Shown here one piece after another: positions 1 through 6,943 of a stretch of 64,000 nt of DNA. Below the pieces are notes generated by a model. The model was not told the DNA's origin, made no database searches, and worked only from the letters and a program-made list of their open reading frames with translations. Location of the stretch: the NCBI RefSeq assembly GCF_026340675.1, contig NZ_JAPEOX010000001.1, forward strand, positions 434,001 through 498,000, read 5' to 3'. The translations under genes were made by a program, and so were the position numbers. The first letter of the stretch is position 1. The number at the start of each line of letters is the position of its first letter. This DNA comes from Streptomyces sp. NBC_01264. GTDB lineage: Bacteria > Actinomycetota > Actinomycetes > Streptomycetales > Streptomycetaceae.

Positions 1-223
1 CCGTGTCGCACAGGGCGAGCCCCCGGACGAGTACGGCGCCGTGCTCGGTGACGAGGCCGTGCAGGGTGTGGCGGTGCTCGGCCGCCCAGGCCGGTAGACC
101 GGCCTGGTCGGGGGTCGGAACACGCAGGATCGGGGGCTTGCCCGGGCACAGGTCCGCTCGGGGCACGGACGCGGAGGTGAGCACGGGGCCGGGGCTCATC
201 GGGGCGGAGCTGGTGAATGACAT
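1..223 (-). CDS. TauD/TfdA-like Fe(II)/2-oxoglutarate oxygenase, N-terminal part only
   Basis: Only the first 74 residues are inside the window; the gene runs off the left edge. The start is ATG at 223 behind GGAAAGGACAGAGACC, a good ribosome binding site, 41 bp downstream of the NRPS gene stop on the same strand, so it is probably the third gene of that operon. The visible part contains LVTEHGAVLVRGL, the early strand-turn typical of TauD/TfdA and SyrP/clavaminate-synthase-like dioxygenases; the His-X-Asp iron ligands lie outside the window. Members of this family in NRPS operons often hydroxylate a free or carrier-bound amino acid, which would fit here, but the substrate is inference. Moderately sure of the family. 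Confidence 0.6.
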   Translation of the reverse strand, partial: MSFTSSAPMSPGPVLTSASVPRADLCPGKPPILRVPTPDQAGLPAWAAEHRHTLHGLVTEHGAVLVRGLALCDT

Positions 224-264
224 GGTCTCTGTCCTTTCCGTGACGGTGAGGAGGACGCCGGCGA

Positions 265-2823
265 TCAGGGGGAAGCCGGCTGTGCGACGGGGCGCTGGTG
301 GGATGCGGTGTCCAGGAACCTGGCCAGATCGATGAGGACGGGGTGTCGTACGACGTCTGCCGGGGACACGGCGCGGTCCAGGGTGATGGCGAGTTTCACG
401 GCCGACAGGGAGGTGCCGCCTCGGTCGAAGAAGTTGTCGCGCCGGTCGATCCGGCCCTGCGGAATGCCGAGCGCGCTCGCCCACGCGGCCGCCATCCGCT
501 GTTCGGCGGGCGTACGAGGCGCCTGGACATCGTCCTCGGTGGCGTGAAGCCGCGCGGCCAGGGCCGTCAGGGCTTTCCGGTCGATCTTGCTGTTGGGGGT
601 CAGCGGGAGGCTTTCCTGCCAGTGGATGGCCGAGGGGACCATGTACCCGGGCAGTGACGTGCCCAGCCGGTCCAGCAGGATGCTGGTTTCGAGCGGGTAC
701 GGGGCGGTGTAGAACGCCACCAGGTGGGTGCTGTGGTCGGGCCGTTCGGTGACCACGACGGCGCTGTCGCGGACCCCGGGTGCTCGTAGCAGGGTGTTTT
801 CGATCTCGCCGGTCTCTATGCGGAAACCACGGATCTTGACCTGGTTGTCGCGGCGGCCCAGGAACTCCAGCTTGCCGTCGGGCCGCCAGCGGCCGACGTC
901 GCCGCTGCGGTACAGCCGCTCGCCCTCACGGTGTGGATCGGCGAGGTACGTCGGCCGCGTGCGCTCGGCGTCGTTGACGTAGCCGCGGCCGACGCAGACC
1001 CCGGAGAAGGCGATCAGGCCGGGCGCGCCCAGGGGCACCGGGTTGAGGTGCTCGTCGACGACGTAGAGGCGCACGTTGTTGACGGGCCGGCCCAGCGGGA
1101 CCCGGTCGGCGTCCGGTGCGCGGTCCATGACCTCGTGGTTGGTGTCGTCGCTGGTCTCGGTCAGGCCGTAGGCGTTGACGAGTTTGATGTGGGGCTGGGC
1201 GGTGAACCAGCGCTGGGCGAGTTCCTTCTTCAGTGCCTCGCCCGTGACCGACACGTACCGCAGGTGCGGCAGCGCCCGGGGGTGCTGCTCGAGATGGGAC
1301 ACGACGACGTCGAGGTAGGAGGGGACGACCTGCAACACGGTGACCTGGCCTCGGGCAACGGTGTCGACGAACCGTGCGGCATCGAGGATCGTTTCCTGCT
1401 CGATCAGCAGGGTCCGCCCGCCGGCCAGCAGCGGGGCGAGCAGTTGCCACAGCGAGATGTCGAAACACTGGGGCGCGGTCTGGGCCACCACCTGCCCTTC
1501 GCCGATCTCGAGGTCGTCGATCTTGGCGTAGAGGTGGTTGAGCATGCCCTGGTGTTCGCACATCGCACCCTTGGGCTCACCCGTCGAGCCGGAGGTGAAG
1601 TAGATGTAGGCCAGCTGGTCCGGTGTGACGTCGATACCGAGATCGGTCCCGGCATGCTCCTCGCCGTAAGCGGTGTCGACGAACAGCGTCCGGACCTCGG
1701 GCCGGGAGGCCAAGGCCGGCTGGAGGGTGGCGGTGGCGGCCGGTTCTGTGATCACGAGCCCGCATCCGGCACGGGCCAGCATGGCTTCGATGCGTTCGGC
1801 CGGCAGATGCGGCTCGATGGGCAGGTACGCACCGCCGGCTTTGAAGACGGCCAGGACGGCGGCCAGCCAGTCCAGGTTCCTCTCCATCGCCACGGCAACC
1901 ACCCCTTCATGGCGGAGTCCTTGGGCCCGCAGGGCGCGGGCCAGCCGGTTGGCGCGGGTGTTGAGCTCCTGGTAGCTCCACCTCCGGTTGCCGTGCTGGG
2001 CCGCCACGGCGTCGGGATGCCGCCGTACACGCTGTTCGAACAGCTCGTGCACCCGGTATTCGGGCAGGTCCCGGCGCGGCCCGGCGAGGCCATGGAGCTG
2101 GAAACGGAGCTCTTCTGCCGACACCAGGCTCTGACCTGCGTGATCGGCATCCGGGTCAGCGGCCATCGAGGCGAGCGCGGTCAGGTGGTATCCGGCGATC
2201 CGGGCGGCGCAGTCCGCGTCGAGGACGTCGGTGCGGTAGCGCAGCCGCAGCGTCAGCCGTCCGTCGTCGTGGTGGGCGATGCCCGTCCACAGGGCCGTGC
2301 CGGCGGCCAGGGTGCTGCTGTCCGGGGCCGGGTCGGCGCCGGCCTCTGCGTCAGGGCGGTCGCCGCCGAGGCCGGTGGGGTCGAGTACGGTCTCGAAGGG
2401 TGGTTCGGTCAGGCCCGGTTCGCTCCTGAGGTCATCGACGGGGAAGTCCTGGTCGGCCAGGAATCGCGCGAGGGCGTGGTGGGTGTGCCGCAGCAGGGTC
2501 CGCCATGAGCCGGGGCCGGCCGTCAGTCCGCACGGCAGGGGGCGGCCACCGGAAGCGGCTACGTAACCGGTGGTGACCTCCTGCTCGCCGCTCAGCGCGG
2601 CCAGCACCTTCGCGTGCGCGGTCAGCAGCACACAGTCCAGCGACACCCCCAGGTCGTCTGCCAGCCGGCGCAATGCCGTCGCCCGGCCGGCCGGGACCTG
2701 CGCCTCGTACTCGGCCACGCCCGCGACCGGCGCCGGGGTCCAGCGCGGAAGGGGCGCGAAGCCGCTGCCGGCGGCCAGGACGCCGTGCCAGAACTCTCTA
2801 CTGGTGGATGCGTTGAGCTCCAT
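265..2823 (-). CDS. NRPS protein: half condensation-like domain, adenylation, thiolation
   Basis: 852 residues. Residues 1-240 resemble the C-terminal half of a condensation domain and lack HHxxxDG, so this part is unlikely to condense anything. The adenylation domain (about 255-755) has FTSGSTGEPKG at 409, FDISLWQ at 454, NAYGLTET at 550, YRSGD near 638 and the A10 lysine K746 in NSKIDRK. The carrier domain has DNFFDRGGTSL with S805 as the phosphopantetheine site. By-eye specificity positions read D-I-W-Q-S-T-A-D-D-K; the paired acidic residues suggest a basic or diamino substrate (inference). The start has AGGAGA before ATG and overlaps the upstream gene end by 26 bp, implying translational coupling. 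No condensation or thioesterase domain follows, so the product must pass to another protein, most likely the Pls-like neighbour. Confidence 0.88.
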   Translation of the reverse strand: MELNASTSREFWHGVLAAGSGFAPLPRWTPAPVAGVAEYEAQVPAGRATALRRLADDLGVSLDCVLLTAHAKVLAALSGEQEVTTGYVAASGGRPLPCGLTAGPGSWRTLLRHTHHALARFLADQDFPVDDLRSEPGLTEPPFETVLDPTGLGGDRPDAEAGADPAPDSSTLAAGTALWTGIAHHDDGRLTLRLRYRTDVLDADCAARIAGYHLTALASMAADPDADHAGQSLVSAEELRFQLHGLAGPRRDLPEYRVHELFEQRVRRHPDAVAAQHGNRRWSYQELNTRANRLARALRAQGLRHEGVVAVAMERNLDWLAAVLAVFKAGGAYLPIEPHLPAERIEAMLARAGCGLVITEPAATATLQPALASRPEVRTLFVDTAYGEEHAGTDLGIDVTPDQLAYIYFTSGSTGEPKGAMCEHQGMLNHLYAKIDDLEIGEGQVVAQTAPQCFDISLWQLLAPLLAGGRTLLIEQETILDAARFVDTVARGQVTVLQVVPSYLDVVVSHLEQHPRALPHLRYVSVTGEALKKELAQRWFTAQPHIKLVNAYGLTETSDDTNHEVMDRAPDADRVPLGRPVNNVRLYVVDEHLNPVPLGAPGLIAFSGVCVGRGYVNDAERTRPTYLADPHREGERLYRSGDVGRWRPDGKLEFLGRRDNQVKIRGFRIETGEIENTLLRAPGVRDSAVVVTERPDHSTHLVAFYTAPYPLETSILLDRLGTSLPGYMVPSAIHWQESLPLTPNSKIDRKALTALAARLHATEDDVQAPRTPAEQRMAAAWASALGIPQGRIDRRDNFFDRGGTSLSAVKLAITLDRAVSPADVVRHPVLIDLARFLDTASHQRPVAQPASP

Positions 2824-5530
2824 GAGGGGTCTCTCCTGTCTGGTAGCGATGTGGGTTGGCGTCAGACGCCACCGAGCGGGTTCGGGTGCGGGGCGCGGCG
2901 CCGGACGGCTGCGCCGGCGGCGGTGCGGGTGGCGGGGTGGGTGGCGGGGTGTAGTCCGGCAGCTGTCGGGCCGGGTTTCCCGCCCACCGGGCCCCCTGTG
3001 GGGCCTGCTCGCCTTTCATGAGGAAGGAATCGCAGGCGAGCTGGACACGGTCTGCCAACGTCACGCCGTAGTGGACGAGCGCGCCGACACCGAGGGTGCA
3101 GCCGTCACCGATCGTGGTGCGGTCGGACTTGAAGGCGCCGTCCTCCTGCGAGTGGCACTGGATCACCGTGCCCGCGTTCAACGTGCAGTCGTCCCCGATG
3201 GTGACGAGGCTCCGCTCGGGGAAGAAGCAGCCGTCGTCGAAGACCCGCTTGCCGATCCGCGCGCCCAGCAACCGCCAGACGAGGTTCTTGAACGGAGTCC
3301 CGTCGAAGAACTGGACGTAATCGACCGACGCCATCTTCCAGAAGCGCTCGTGCCGCCAGAACGACGGCTCGTAGATCGAGCAGTACAGAGGCTTCTGCGC
3401 CTTGAACCCGGTGACGGCCCGTTCGAGCAGCGCGAAGTAGACGACGCTGAACAGCAGCGTGAGGACACCGGCCAGCGCGAACGCCGACGCTCCTAGCGAG
3501 GGGTAGAGGGTGGTGGCGCCCAGGGCGAGAAGGGTCACGGCGAAGACGTGGATCCACCGCGCCATCAGGTACAGCCCCGCCGTGACGGCATTGTGCCGGT
3601 TCTTGGCAGCCAGGCGCCGACGCAGCTCGCCACCGCTCTCCAGCTCCTGGAACCGGGTGTCCCGCATCACCGTGCGCGGAATGGCGAAGGGGGGCGAGCC
3701 CAGCAGGCCCACGTTCTCCCGTACCTCTCCGTCGACCGGGACCATCACCTTCGTCGCCAGCAGACAGTTGTCACCGGTCCTGGCCCGCGAGGGGTAGGCA
3801 ATGTGGTTGCCGAGGAAACTGCGGGCTCCGATCGAGACCCGGGACAGCCTGAATGACGTGTTGGAGAATTCGGCGTTGATGACGGACAGGCCGTCGGCGA
3901 CCATCGTCCTGCTGCCCACCGAGGTCAAGAACGGGTTGTCGTGCTTCACTTCGCTACCGAAGTTCGAACCGGTCTGTGTGACACGGAACAGGTCGTAGCC
4001 GAGGTAGCGCAGGTAGTGGACGATCGCGGAGCTGTCGCCGAACAGTCCCGTGAAGAACTTCCTGTTGGTCAGCAGCGCGATGGCCCGCTGCAGACCGTAG
4101 TGGAAGCCGTAGAGCGGATAGACCGTGTCCGGCTTGACCGCCAGATGGAGCAGGCGCGGCACCACGCCCTGGATGACCAGCGCGGCGAAGGCGGCTCCGA
4201 AGAACAGCACGAAGGACGCGGCCAGCACACCCAGGTAGAACCTCCCGGTGGCGAACGCCGAAGTCCCGTCCTGAGACATTGTGTTCAGCTGTGACAGCGG
4301 GGCCAGCAGCACTGTGACACAGCCGGCGGCCAGCGGCAGATGCACCAGCATCAGGGCGAGCAGCTGTCCGACGGTGTAACGGAGCTTCCTGGCGGTGGAG
4401 CCGTCGACGGCACCGACCGTGCGGAAGTCCGTACCGGTGGGCTCGGCCGGTGACCCGTGCCAGCGCTCGCCCGCGGGGACGCTCTGACCGGCGTGCAGGC
4501 TGGAGGCGTGCCCGAGCTGGGCCCGGTCGCCCATCGAGGTGTTGATGTCGAGGACGGTCTGCTCACTGACGTGGACGTTGCGGCCGAGGGTGACGGGGCC
4601 GGTCTGGATGAGACCGTCGTGCGCCCGGTAGCAGGAGAGGAACGCATCCTTGCGGACCACGGTTCCGTCACCGATCGTGAGCAGATCGACGCAGACAGGG
4701 ACATGCGTGGAGAAGATCGCGACATCGCGCCCGATCTTCGCGCCCAGCGCCCTGAGATACGCCGAATACAACGGCGACCCGGTGAACAGACGGACAGGAC
4801 TCGTGCGGATCAAGGTTTTGACCAGCCACCAGCGTACGTAGCCGAGGGTCCAGACGGAAAACTCGCGGCTCGTGAAACGACCGATGAGGGTCCACTTCGC
4901 CACGATCGGCACCCCGCACAGGCCGGCAAAGCCGACACTGCCCAGCAGTACGGATCGCAGGTAGACATCGAGCACGCCGGAGCCGGCGCCGACCCACTCG
5001 AAGCCTCGGACCGTGGCCAGGGCGGCGAGGTAGGAGTAGCCGAGGAACACCAGGAACTGCAGCATTCCGCACAGCAGGTACTGCCCTGTGCCCGCCCGCG
5101 CCGCCATCCTGCGCACCGAAGCGGACACCGGCGTTGATGCCTGAGTTGATGCCTGGATTGATGCCGGTCCCGTGGTCACGGGCCCAGCGGATACGGGCGT
5201 CGAGGCTGCGGGCACGGTGTGAGTGGAAGCAGGGGCCTGGGGCGCGACGCGGGTGAGCGCCGAGGCCAGGCCGTTGGCCGTGGGATACCGGTAGACGTCC
5301 TTCATCGATACAGGCGGCAGGTCGGCCCGCTTCCTGACCCGGGCACAGAACCCGGCCATCACCAGCGAATCGGCACCCAGATCATCAAAGAAGTTGCTGT
5401 CACCCGGCACCTGCTCCACACCCACGGCCTCGGCAAGCACCTCCGCGAGGAGCCGCGCGGTCTCGGCCGCCGGGCTGCCGGCCGTGCCGGGCGGGCAGGA
5501 CGTCCAGGCATCGGTGGATTCTTCTAGCAT
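2798..5530 (-). CDS. Pls-like membrane protein: carrier domain plus three membrane-linked acyltransferase-type domains, no adenylation domain
   Basis: 910 residues from ATG at 5530 (GAGGAG ahead of it; a GTG two codons earlier would overlap that site). Residues 1-95 are a carrier domain with LGADSLV, S55. A Ser/Thr/Pro/Ala linker follows to about 140. Hydrophobic helix groups near 150-215, 385-460 and 650-710 alternate with left-handed beta-helix segments rich in IG-D motifs at about 250-365, 535-620 and 750-870, ending in a proline-rich tail. This is the layout of the C-terminal two thirds of epsilon-poly-lysine synthetase (Pls), where tandem domains join carrier-loaded amino acids through side-chain amides. 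The usual N-terminal adenylation domain is absent; an A-T protein is encoded immediately downstream instead. Probable role: membrane-bound oligomerisation or acylation of the loaded amino acid. Family clear, product unknown. Confidence 0.85.
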   Translation of the reverse strand: MLEESTDAWTSCPPGTAGSPAAETARLLAEVLAEAVGVEQVPGDSNFFDDLGADSLVMAGFCARVRKRADLPPVSMKDVYRYPTANGLASALTRVAPQAPASTHTVPAASTPVSAGPVTTGPASIQASTQASTPVSASVRRMAARAGTGQYLLCGMLQFLVFLGYSYLAALATVRGFEWVGAGSGVLDVYLRSVLLGSVGFAGLCGVPIVAKWTLIGRFTSREFSVWTLGYVRWWLVKTLIRTSPVRLFTGSPLYSAYLRALGAKIGRDVAIFSTHVPVCVDLLTIGDGTVVRKDAFLSCYRAHDGLIQTGPVTLGRNVHVSEQTVLDINTSMGDRAQLGHASSLHAGQSVPAGERWHGSPAEPTGTDFRTVGAVDGSTARKLRYTVGQLLALMLVHLPLAAGCVTVLLAPLSQLNTMSQDGTSAFATGRFYLGVLAASFVLFFGAAFAALVIQGVVPRLLHLAVKPDTVYPLYGFHYGLQRAIALLTNRKFFTGLFGDSSAIVHYLRYLGYDLFRVTQTGSNFGSEVKHDNPFLTSVGSRTMVADGLSVINAEFSNTSFRLSRVSIGARSFLGNHIAYPSRARTGDNCLLATKVMVPVDGEVRENVGLLGSPPFAIPRTVMRDTRFQELESGGELRRRLAAKNRHNAVTAGLYLMARWIHVFAVTLLALGATTLYPSLGASAFALAGVLTLLFSVVYFALLERAVTGFKAQKPLYCSIYEPSFWRHERFWKMASVDYVQFFDGTPFKNLVWRLLGARIGKRVFDDGCFFPERSLVTIGDDCTLNAGTVIQCHSQEDGAFKSDRTTIGDGCTLGVGALVHYGVTLADRVQLACDSFLMKGEQAPQGARWAGNPARQLPDYTPPPTPPPAPPPAQPSGAAPRTRTRSVASDANPHRYQTGETPHGAQRIHQ

Positions 5531-5959
5531 GGGCACTCCTCGACGATGTTCCGGGCGCCGCGGACCGCGGCGGTCGGCACCCGCCGGTCACGCGAGCGGA
5601 TTCGTGATGCCGCCCCTCCAGTAGGCCCGGCAGGGGCATATCCGTCATGCCGCTGGATTTCGTAACTTGACGCCCCGTGCTTGCGGCGGTAGGCGGCCGC
5701 CGGTGCCGGTCTTCACCCCTTGCTTTTTCGCGCATGCCGGGCGCATCCGCCCTCACCGGCCTGGATCAAGCCCGCCCGGCCCCTATCCCTGATCGTGGCC
5801 GATGTCAAGCCACGACATCCGGTGGCATGACAGAGCCGCGCTCAGCCCGCGTACTGGAGGAGTCCCGAAGACGTGGCACCAGGCGACACCTTCCCCGAGC
5901 CGCCCCCACAGGAGCCGGCGGTACCAGACGGCGCCGTGGGCGCATGCGAGGAGGCAACC
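5531..5959. promoter_or_regulatory. divergent promoter region of the biosynthetic locus
   Basis: 429 bp between the leftward Pls/NRPS operon and the rightward SbnA-like gene, with no convincing gene. It must carry both promoters. The best visible rightward candidate is TTGACG at 5667-5672, a 17-bp spacer and TAGGCG at 5690-5695, a moderate match to the housekeeping sigma-factor consensus; it would leave a leader of about 260 nt. No clear palindromic operator was found. Confidence 0.4.
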
Positions 5960-6943
5960 ATGCCGGTCATATCCGCCCCCCAGGATTTCAACCAGGACGA
6001 CCTCTACGTCGACCTCGAGGCCGTCACCGGGCACCGGCTGTTCCTCAAATGCGAAGGATTCAACTTCGCGGGGTCCATCAAGCTCAAAGCCGCAACCGCG
6101 ATGGTCGAGGCCGCCGAAAGCGACGGCCTGCTCACCCCTGGATCCATTCTGGTGGAATCCTCCTCCGGCAACCTCGGAGTGGCGCTGAGCATGATCGCAG
6201 CGAGCAAGGGCTACCGGTTCGTATGCGTGACCGACTCCCGCTGCAACCTGGCGACCCGGCTGCTCCTGGAGACCCTCGGCAGCCAGGTCCACATCGTCAC
6301 CGAGCCCTCCCCCACCGGCGGACTGCTCGGCGCCCGCATCGACCACGTCCGCGCCCTGTGCGCCTCCGACGACCGCTACGTATGGCTCAACCAGTACACC
6401 AACCCCAACAACCACAGCGCTCACTACCGGATCACCGCACCGGCCATCGCCCGCGCCTTCCCTGACCTCGATGTCCTCTTCATCGGGGCCGGCACCACCG
6501 GGACCCTGATGGGGTGCGCCCGCTACTTCCGCACCTGGCACCGCCCGGTACGCATCGTCGCGATCGATCCAGAGGGCTCCGCCACCTTTGGACACACGTC
6601 CGGTCGCCGCATGATCCCCGGCCTCGGCACCAGCATCCGCCCCCCGCTCCTCGACACCTCCTACGTGGACGAGGTGGTACACGTCAACGAAGCCGAGACG
6701 ATTCGCACGTGCCACCAACTGGCCCGCCACGGCTTCGTCTTCGGCGGCTCAACCGGAACTGTCGTCAAGGGAGCCACCCAATGGCTGGCCCAGCGGGAAC
6801 AGCAGGTGACCGCGGTCGCCATCGCCCCCGACCTCGGCGAGCGCTACCTCGACACCGTCTACCAGACCAGCTGGGTGCAGGACCTCTACGGCGAGGACGT
6901 GCTCCAGCCCCAGCCCGCCACCGCCGCCAGCCCGACGGGCTGA
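5960..6943 (+). CDS. SbnA-like PLP-dependent enzyme (cysteine synthase fold), 2,3-diaminopropionate route
   Basis: 327 residues. The frame is open further upstream, but ATG at 5960 follows GAGGAGG at ideal spacing and gives the usual family length. The PLP lysine is K41 in AGSIKLK; the substrate loop ESSSGNLGVALSM and the phosphate-binding GAGTTGTLMG are present. AGSIKLK with ESSSGNLG is characteristic of SbnA, which makes N-(1-amino-1-carboxy-2-ethyl)-glutamate from O-phosphoserine and glutamate; SbnB then releases 2,3-diaminopropionate. No SbnB-like gene is visible, but the locus continues beyond the left edge. Transcribed divergently from the Pls-like/NRPS operon, so it likely supplies the amino acid used there. 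Cysteine synthase proper is the main alternative. Confidence 0.82.
   Translation: MPVISAPQDFNQDDLYVDLEAVTGHRLFLKCEGFNFAGSIKLKAATAMVEAAESDGLLTPGSILVESSSGNLGVALSMIAASKGYRFVCVTDSRCNLATRLLLETLGSQVHIVTEPSPTGGLLGARIDHVRALCASDDRYVWLNQYTNPNNHSAHYRITAPAIARAFPDLDVLFIGAGTTGTLMGCARYFRTWHRPVRIVAIDPEGSATFGHTSGRRMIPGLGTSIRPPLLDTSYVDEVVHVNEAETIRTCHQLARHGFVFGGSTGTVVKGATQWLAQREQQVTAVAIAPDLGERYLDTVYQTSWVQDLYGEDVLQPQPATAASPTG

Follow-up and report, generated by a model that had tools for sequence, protein, structure and literature searches.

A five-gene cassette lies at the left edge of a 64,000-nucleotide stretch of the Streptomyces sp. NBC_01264 genome (the window; G000:C1:434001-498000 of the 10.67 Mb genome G000), in which a minus-strand operon carries the genes for T-Pls, A-T, TauD and SbnB, and SbnA is encoded divergently. 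T-Pls couples a carrier (T) domain to the terminal membrane domain of the poly-amino-acid synthetases Pls and PosA, and the adenylation (A) domain is found on the separate A-T protein. On balance, we favour the reading that the cassette is a pathway complete in itself, which builds L-2,3-diaminopropionate (Dap) into a probably oxidised, isopeptide-linked oligomer or polymer, with substrate, oxidation and product predicted from the genes. The features are as follows (coordinates are counted within the window unless prefixed G000).

G000:C1:432065-433171, just left of the window, minus strand: SbnB, matching TIGR03944, overlapping the end of TauD by 4 bases.
1 to 223, minus strand: first 74 codons of TauD, a TauD/TfdA-family Fe(II)/2-oxoglutarate oxygenase (whole gene G000:C1:433168-434223).
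265 to 2823, minus strand: A-T protein, 852 amino acids (aa), with half condensation, adenylation and carrier domains and no thioesterase, from domain searches.
313 to 498, minus strand: carrier domain of A-T, with the motif DRGGTS, from domain search and motif.
544 to 2055, minus strand: adenylation domain of A-T (residues 257-760), from domain search, with the motif-anchored code DIWQSTADDK.
2089 to 2823, minus strand: putative C-terminal half of a condensation domain (residues ~1-245 of A-T), from PF00668 and a structure model.
2798 to 5530, minus strand: T-Pls, 910 aa, carrier plus Pls/PosA terminal membrane domain and no adenylation domain (start ATG chosen by us).
2969 to 5074, minus strand: Pls/PosA terminal domain, TIGR02353 profile match at full length (1-695 of 695).
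5255 to 5452, minus strand: carrier domain of T-Pls (residues 29-94, PF00550), with the motif DLGADS.
5531 to 5959, no strand: divergent intergenic region of 429 bases between T-Pls and SbnA, from the sequence.
5960 to 6943, plus strand: SbnA-type pyridoxal phosphate (PLP) enzyme, 327 aa, TIGR03945 (start ATG chosen by us).

The operon is tightly spaced, with a 26-base overlap between T-Pls and A-T, a 41-base gap between A-T and TauD, and the 4-base overlap between TauD and SbnB (start codons chosen by us). The terminal domain of T-Pls matches TIGR02353 at 746 bits against a cut-off of 423.1; a carrier domain (E = 9.2e-8) stands directly before it, and a simple hydropathy script finds six transmembrane-like segments. 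Domain searches returned no AMP-binding match, and hence no A domain, in T-Pls; that domain sits in the neighbouring A-T protein. As judged from its sequence, T-Pls is an A-less branch of the TIGR02353 family and not a single-chain Pls. The earlier note on this DNA had allowed that the membrane protein might align better to unrelated hexapeptide acyltransferases, a candidate that we rejected since the next family reaches 36 bits against 746 bits for Pls/PosA. Fifty-four conserved columns are common to 13 canonical Pls rows (one residue in at least 92%) and 85 rows of the T-Pls group (at least 97%), among them N787, Q793, H795 and D799 of the last soluble domain (912-aa numbering), for which a catalytic role can be proposed.

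The A-T protein is supported by an AMP-binding match (E = 2e-85) and a carrier match (E = 1.1e-8), and all motifs looked for (A3, A4, A5, A7, A8 and A10) are present. Its first ~245 residues, unremarked in the earlier note, resemble the C-terminal half of a condensation domain. Of 22 homologous N-terminal pieces, 21 match PF00668; the piece from this genome scores 30.6 bits, just at the curated cut-off (profile positions 193-282 of 456), and its AlphaFold2 model has a predicted local distance difference test (pLDDT) value of 83. From the Pfam matches and the secondary structure of the model, this N-terminus looks like half a condensation domain.

SbnA-type PLP enzymes carry out the first step to 2,3-diaminopropionate. 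The SbnA protein exceeds the cut-off of TIGR03945 (386.6 versus 349.95 bits), and its nearest solved structures are S. aureus SbnA and then capreomycin CmnB. SbnB, which the earlier note had suggested looking for to the left, was found directly left of TauD (TIGR03944, 411.3 bits versus a cut-off of 326.9); the SbnA/SbnB pair is thus complete, with both members above equivalog cut-offs. The four pieces that the note had read from the letters (A-T protein, A-less membrane Pls, SbnA and the start of TauD) lie where it had put them, and domain matches confirm each.

We then asked how often this layout recurs. Related loci were the best 80 of 315 relatives from a scan of genome contigs, a choice that favours close relatives, and gene presence was scored by tblastn with thresholds set by us. 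T-Pls is flanked by more than 8 kb on either side in 61 loci. An A-T gene is present in 54 of them, and 52 of these 54 hold all five genes, the other two (L028 and L065) being without SbnB only. The five-gene unit occurs in Streptomyces, Pseudonocardia, Kibdelosporangium, Amycolatopsis and Actinoplanes. A split caused by a frameshift or an assembly error was rejected because the layout recurs in other genomes, and the domain scores together with this recurrence exclude chance. An A-less T-Pls also occurs as an orphan (L036, L038, L041 and L043, each with T-Pls at ~10 kb, and L168:5584-11409), with no A-T gene in the fetched stretch and a DUF418/acyltransferase-3 membrane gene close upstream; three genomes with an orphan T-Pls carry an A-T-bearing locus elsewhere (S. 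jeddahensis, L036/L074; S. wuyuanensis, L038/L105; Ru62, L050/L081). In a third layout (L059, L073 and L082), T-Pls and TauD are accompanied by a free carrier protein and a ligase of the TIGR03098 type (scored in L082).

In a genus sample of 199 genomes, including the one studied here, 80 have a close A-T relative and at least 110 have a TIGR02353 match. At least 66 of the 199 genomes have an A-T gene and, no more than 4.5 kb away, a Pls judged A-less; at least 72 of 91 A-T matches are so placed, as are 72 of the 77 A-less Pls rows taken into the pairing. Here 'A-less' was judged by frame length, the 77 rows being 76 frames of 629-1144 aa and one 2327-aa frame (G494) that also holds an A-T match; long-frame rows were left out as single-chain, as were two rows whose frames are cut or unclear (G408 and G566). 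Some frame lengths run upstream to the previous stop and so include non-coding residues, and gene calls in the related loci are rough, being made from codon composition. The G494 frame (G494:C1:27780-32618) is perhaps a fusion of T-Pls and A-T. A Pls-like protein without its A domain beside a free A-T gene, which the earlier note had proposed searching for, is thus a common arrangement, and the single chains that the note gave as the Pls type are not the only layout, A-less forms being common in the genus. In a proteomics study of S. scabies on potato, the SbnB homologue C9YUJ1 is encoded near an sbnA homologue and a non-ribosomal peptide synthetase (NRPS) gene (PMC11479980; this and the other papers below are cited from excerpts), a locus that may correspond to this cassette.

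The origin of the split can be approached through relatives that still have an A domain in the same chain (in cis). The T-Pls terminal domain is 26-29% identical to those of three canonical single-chain Pls enzymes (L016, L107 and L115) and 45-54% identical to those of single-chain enzymes of Paenarthrobacter, Skermanella (beside ectB), Shinella, Phyllobacterium and Pseudonocardia. In the latter group, the five intact A domains carry the codes DFECLSVVTK or DFEALGTVTK, in which F and E occupy positions 2 and 3; phenylalanine at code position 2 is given for poly-Dap and poly-diaminobutyrate (poly-Dab) enzymes, with glutamate conserved at position 3 (PMC10522769). By sequence identity, the T-Pls terminal domain is closer to this poly-Dap/poly-Dab group, whose comparison enzymes were grouped by A codes, not assays. 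In a quick tree, seven canonical single-chain rows fall beyond a long branch (SH-aLRT 100), with members that have A in cis among the rest. A second Pls of this genome (G000:C1:1686823-1690620; L016 and L147) is single-chain and probably an epsilon-poly-lysine synthetase; it has the code DAESIGTVVK, and alanine at position 2 is given for poly-lysine enzymes (PMC10522769).

All five relatives with every cis A motif intact (L165, L166, L167, L170 and L090_b2) are without a separate (trans) A-T gene or TauD in the fetched stretch, though L090 opens with the tail of SbnB and an SbnA gene, so that a cassette may lie past its end. Five other relatives with context have degenerate cis A domains that have lost the A10 lysine and other motifs, and four of these five have a trans A-T gene in the locus: L039 and L094 hold A-T, TauD, SbnB and SbnA, L051 has the start of A-T at a contig end, and L063_b2 stands in a locus with all four other genes, next to a second, A-less T-Pls. 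Degenerate A domains also appear in L057, P0116 and P0118, which have no usable context and are not counted in these four of five. Because some Pseudonocardia relatives keep decaying A domains beside a separate A-T gene, the split probably arose by decay and loss of the cis A domain. A single-chain poly-Dap/Dab synthetase would first have been joined by a separate A-T/TauD unit, after which its own A domain would have decayed and been lost. The cis A domain would load unoxidised Dap, so that its loss would make every monomer pass the oxygenase.

H120-x-E122, H314 and R323 are retained in all 14 aligned TauD proteins, the first three of which we take to be the facial triad and the last the 2-oxoglutarate-binding arginine. 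A sequence search of the PDB gave four sequences in all at E <= 0.001, comprising the At3g21360 protein, a TauD/TfdA-like protein of unnamed function and, weakly, clavaminate synthases. The idea that the nearest TauD relatives in this genome lie in NRPS clusters was dropped, since that comparison had covered NRPS regions only. Carrier-acting and free-acid hydroxylases form two subfamilies (PMC13285481). By chemical reasoning, a hydroxyl at C3 (beta) of free Dap would give an unstable hemiaminal; oxidation after acylation of the beta-nitrogen, or dehydrogenation, is therefore more likely than plain hydroxylation of the monomer. It is unlikely, in our estimate, that the product is ordinary beta-poly-Dap, with no chemical reason for the split and TauD altering just an end group or a minor portion. 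Streptomyces is known to make that polymer with a single-chain enzyme that shares the terminal architecture (PMC4668381), but TauD is present in all 54 A-T loci with more than 8 kb flanks and also in the free-A variant of L059, L073 and L082, and it is absent from the fetched stretches of all five relatives with an intact cis A domain.

To estimate which monomer A-T activates, we read its specificity code at positions of GrsA numbering, anchored on motifs. Among 69 aligned rows (the window included), 58 read DIWQSTADDK and 7 DIWQSTTDDK, and 4 are cut by contig ends. In our genome, codes were obtained for 38 A domains in fetched stretches, of 70 matches, and D-I-W-x-x-x-A-D-D-K occurs in three of the 38, A-T being one. 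The second is ~17 kb from an SbnA/SbnB pair in an NRPS cluster on contig C3, and the third ~8 kb from a weak SbnA-like gene. Besides its SbnA/SbnB pair, the C3 cluster (G000:C3:125001-185000; L136-L138) includes two TauD genes and an A domain with the code DIWEVTADDK. The A-T code has neither the F at position 2 nor the E at position 3 that mark poly-Dap/Dab enzymes; the cis A domain bearing F and E is gone here. DVWQMIGDDK is listed for beta-hydroxylated diaminobutyrate (PMC12283262) and agrees with DIWQSTADDK at 6 of 10 positions, which we treat as a hint and no more; a search for the exact code in papers returned nothing relevant.

More distant A-T genes have partly other companions. Among 16 further genus loci, picked by us from the lower part of the A-T list, T-Pls is present in 4 and not in the other 12, and TauD is present in 10 of these 12 (not in L158 and L159). 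Six of the 12 have SbnB and SbnA (L151-L154, L163 and L164), and six have an SbnA-like gene only (31-32% identity). In A-T relatives at 46-48% identity, an argininosuccinate-lyase-type gene adjoins the SbnA-like gene (L156, L158 and L160), with an ATP-grasp ligase gene in L156 and L159 and a GHMP kinase gene in L158 and L159 (lyase and kinase scored in L158, the others assigned by clustering). Gene sets with an SbnA-like enzyme, an argininosuccinate lyase and a GHMP kinase presumably make 2,3-diaminobutyrate. The A domain thus appears to go with 2,3-diamino-acid genes of varied make-up, and SbnA and SbnB point to Dap in this cassette.

Two alternatives bear on these loci. A-T could activate another small amino acid, such as serine or 2,3-diaminobutyrate, with Dap acting only as nucleophile or partner; the non-SbnB gene set adjoining A-T relatives in L156-L161 would suit this, as would the D, W, D and K that the A-T code has in common with DVWHVSLVDK, a code of this genome that we take to be of serine type. 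Against it, the DDK ending is confined to three domains of the 38 read, all of which have an SbnA-type gene, weak in one case, no more than 17 kb away, and neither a GHMP kinase nor a lyase is among the genes annotated in this cassette, so that we consider it quite improbable. It is more doubtful still that T-Pls is a relic and that A-T, TauD, SbnA and SbnB alone make a free oxidised amino acid: this would agree with the unit lacking T-Pls in 6 of the 16 fetched genus loci, but T-Pls remains open and conserved, retains its C3 motif and lies within 4.5 kb of at least 72 of the 91 A-T matches.

Under the favoured reading of a Dap oligomer or polymer, SbnA and SbnB would make Dap, as expected from their families, and A-T would activate it, loading its own carrier and, in trans, that of T-Pls. 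TauD would oxidise the carrier-bound residue or the growing chain. By analogy with Pls and PosA, the three hexapeptide-type domains of T-Pls would link residues through the beta-amino group, the product leaving at the membrane, and release in this clade would proceed without a thioesterase. This last point touches on a further possibility, to which we give some but limited weight, namely that the product is small and capped (for example an oxidised Dap dimer or a cyclic dipeptide): A-T would supply one oxidised Dap and T-Pls a second, one amide would form, and a fused thioesterase, where present, would release the product. Such a scheme would explain two carriers of different type (DRGGTS and DLGADS), the thioesterase fused to A-T in 46 of 68 relatives, and the A-T/TauD/SbnB/SbnA unit in other NRPS-type surroundings. 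However, of the other 22 relatives, 5 are cut by contig ends and 17 with the C-terminus in view have no fused thioesterase, like the protein studied here; the terminal domain belongs to a polymerising family, and several T-Pls relatives have two or three tandem carriers. One T-Pls (L042:9872-13669) has three tandem carriers and a C-terminal peptidoglycan-binding domain.

Several points weigh against the proposed Dap pathway. Its substrate, carrier loading and product are deduced from genes, and the A-T code has no Glu at position 3, where Pls enzymes carry it. The SbnA-like neighbour of the third own-genome DIW-type domain scores 248.9 bits, which falls short of the cut-off and does not exceed another match in this genome (260.7), and seven further A domains near SbnA/SbnB in the C3 cluster carry other codes. 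In six of the 61 full-flank loci T-Pls stands alone, all four other genes being absent, and in L073 it is joined by TauD with no A-T; conversely, the A-T/TauD/SbnB/SbnA unit also exists without T-Pls (L151-L154, L163 and L164) and so may serve another purpose. Many A-T relatives have a fused thioesterase, as would suit a small product that is released, and, a beta-hydroxyl on free Dap being unstable, TauD must either perform another oxidation or act after the beta-nitrogen has been acylated. For the origin of the split, the trans A-T of L063 stands beside the second, A-less T-Pls, making its link to the decaying enzyme indirect, and P. autotrophica (L169) has a degenerate cis A domain and TauD with no A-T found.

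The cassette resembles several known systems in part. It shares with the poly(L-diaminopropionic acid) synthetase of S. albulus PD-1 the monomer class (predicted here), the type of terminal membrane domain and the supply of Dap by homologues of cysteine synthase and ornithine cyclodeaminase; that enzyme, however, has A, T and terminal domain in one chain, its Dap genes are not nearby, and no oxygenase is named in the excerpts of PMC4668381, whereas in this cassette a second protein carries A, and the locus itself includes Dap genes and TauD. Pls (epsilon-poly-L-lysine) and PosA (delta-poly-L-ornithine) likewise have a TIGR02353-type terminal domain with six transmembrane segments and a preceding carrier, but are single chains with a different A code (PMC10522769). 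In capreomycin biosynthesis (CmnA-A1/CmnI), an A-less module is served by a separate A domain encoded in the same cluster, with trans loading of L-Dap shown for CmnI and only predicted here; unlike T-Pls, CmnI has an ordinary condensation domain and no Pls terminal domain, and the product is a cyclic pentapeptide (PMC12400406). Streptothricin ORF18/ORF19 make a diamino-acid isopeptide oligomer, a linkage that we predict here, and they too keep activation on a protein of its own; in that system chain elongation is the work of the free A domain, and no Pls terminal domain is named in the excerpts of PMC9606270. As with carrier-acting 2-oxoglutarate hydroxylases of NRPS systems (PMC13285481), the oxygenase is encoded beside the A-T protein, a likeness known here from the genes. 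A product already published under a name that can be searched was considered and rejected: the open-licence literature yielded the single-chain poly-Dap enzyme but, in the excerpts consulted, no account of this cassette. Every part is known; undescribed, as far as that literature was searched, are the layout (A-less, served in trans and bearing an oxygenase) and how often it occurs.

The ~10 kb scanned to the left holds ten frames, among them an SRPBCC gene, two PucR-type regulators, an AMP-binding fragment, two esterase-type genes and an Nramp gene, and no unrelated complete pathway of the kind that the earlier note had considered. A DUF4916/NUDIX gene lies to the right, and no dedicated exporter or thioesterase gene was seen in the locus. 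Outside the five genes, no neighbour cluster of ordinary gene size is common to more than 6 of the 80 related loci (on rough gene calls); two clusters made up of short predicted frames turn up more often, the 103-aa one in 26 loci and the 70-aa one in 23, and L027 (16514-17359) indicates that they run antisense within SbnB. A threonine-synthase-like PLP gene adjoins SbnB or SbnA in rarer actinomycetes (L093:17132-18295, where it was scored, and a matching gene in L053, L058 and L070).

If this reading is true, a common Streptomyces biosynthetic cassette, uncharacterised as far as we searched, has been overlooked. Such synthetases are sought as long single chains, and a network of poly-amino-acid synthetases used a length filter of 1100-1800 residues (PMC10522769), which leaves out A-less enzymes, as A-less T-Pls enzymes mostly have 830-980 residues. 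More tentatively, about a third of Streptomyces species may make oxidised Dap isopeptide oligomers of a class not yet described; loss of the cis A domain would here force each monomer through a carrier-acting oxygenase before joining, and parts of a former single chain would act in trans as activator, oxidiser and polymeriser. The cassette would then be a machine of the polymer type in which activation, oxidation and polymerisation fall to separate proteins, so that each step could be assayed alone, and the decaying A domains of Pseudonocardia would make the origin of a trans-acting NRPS traceable.

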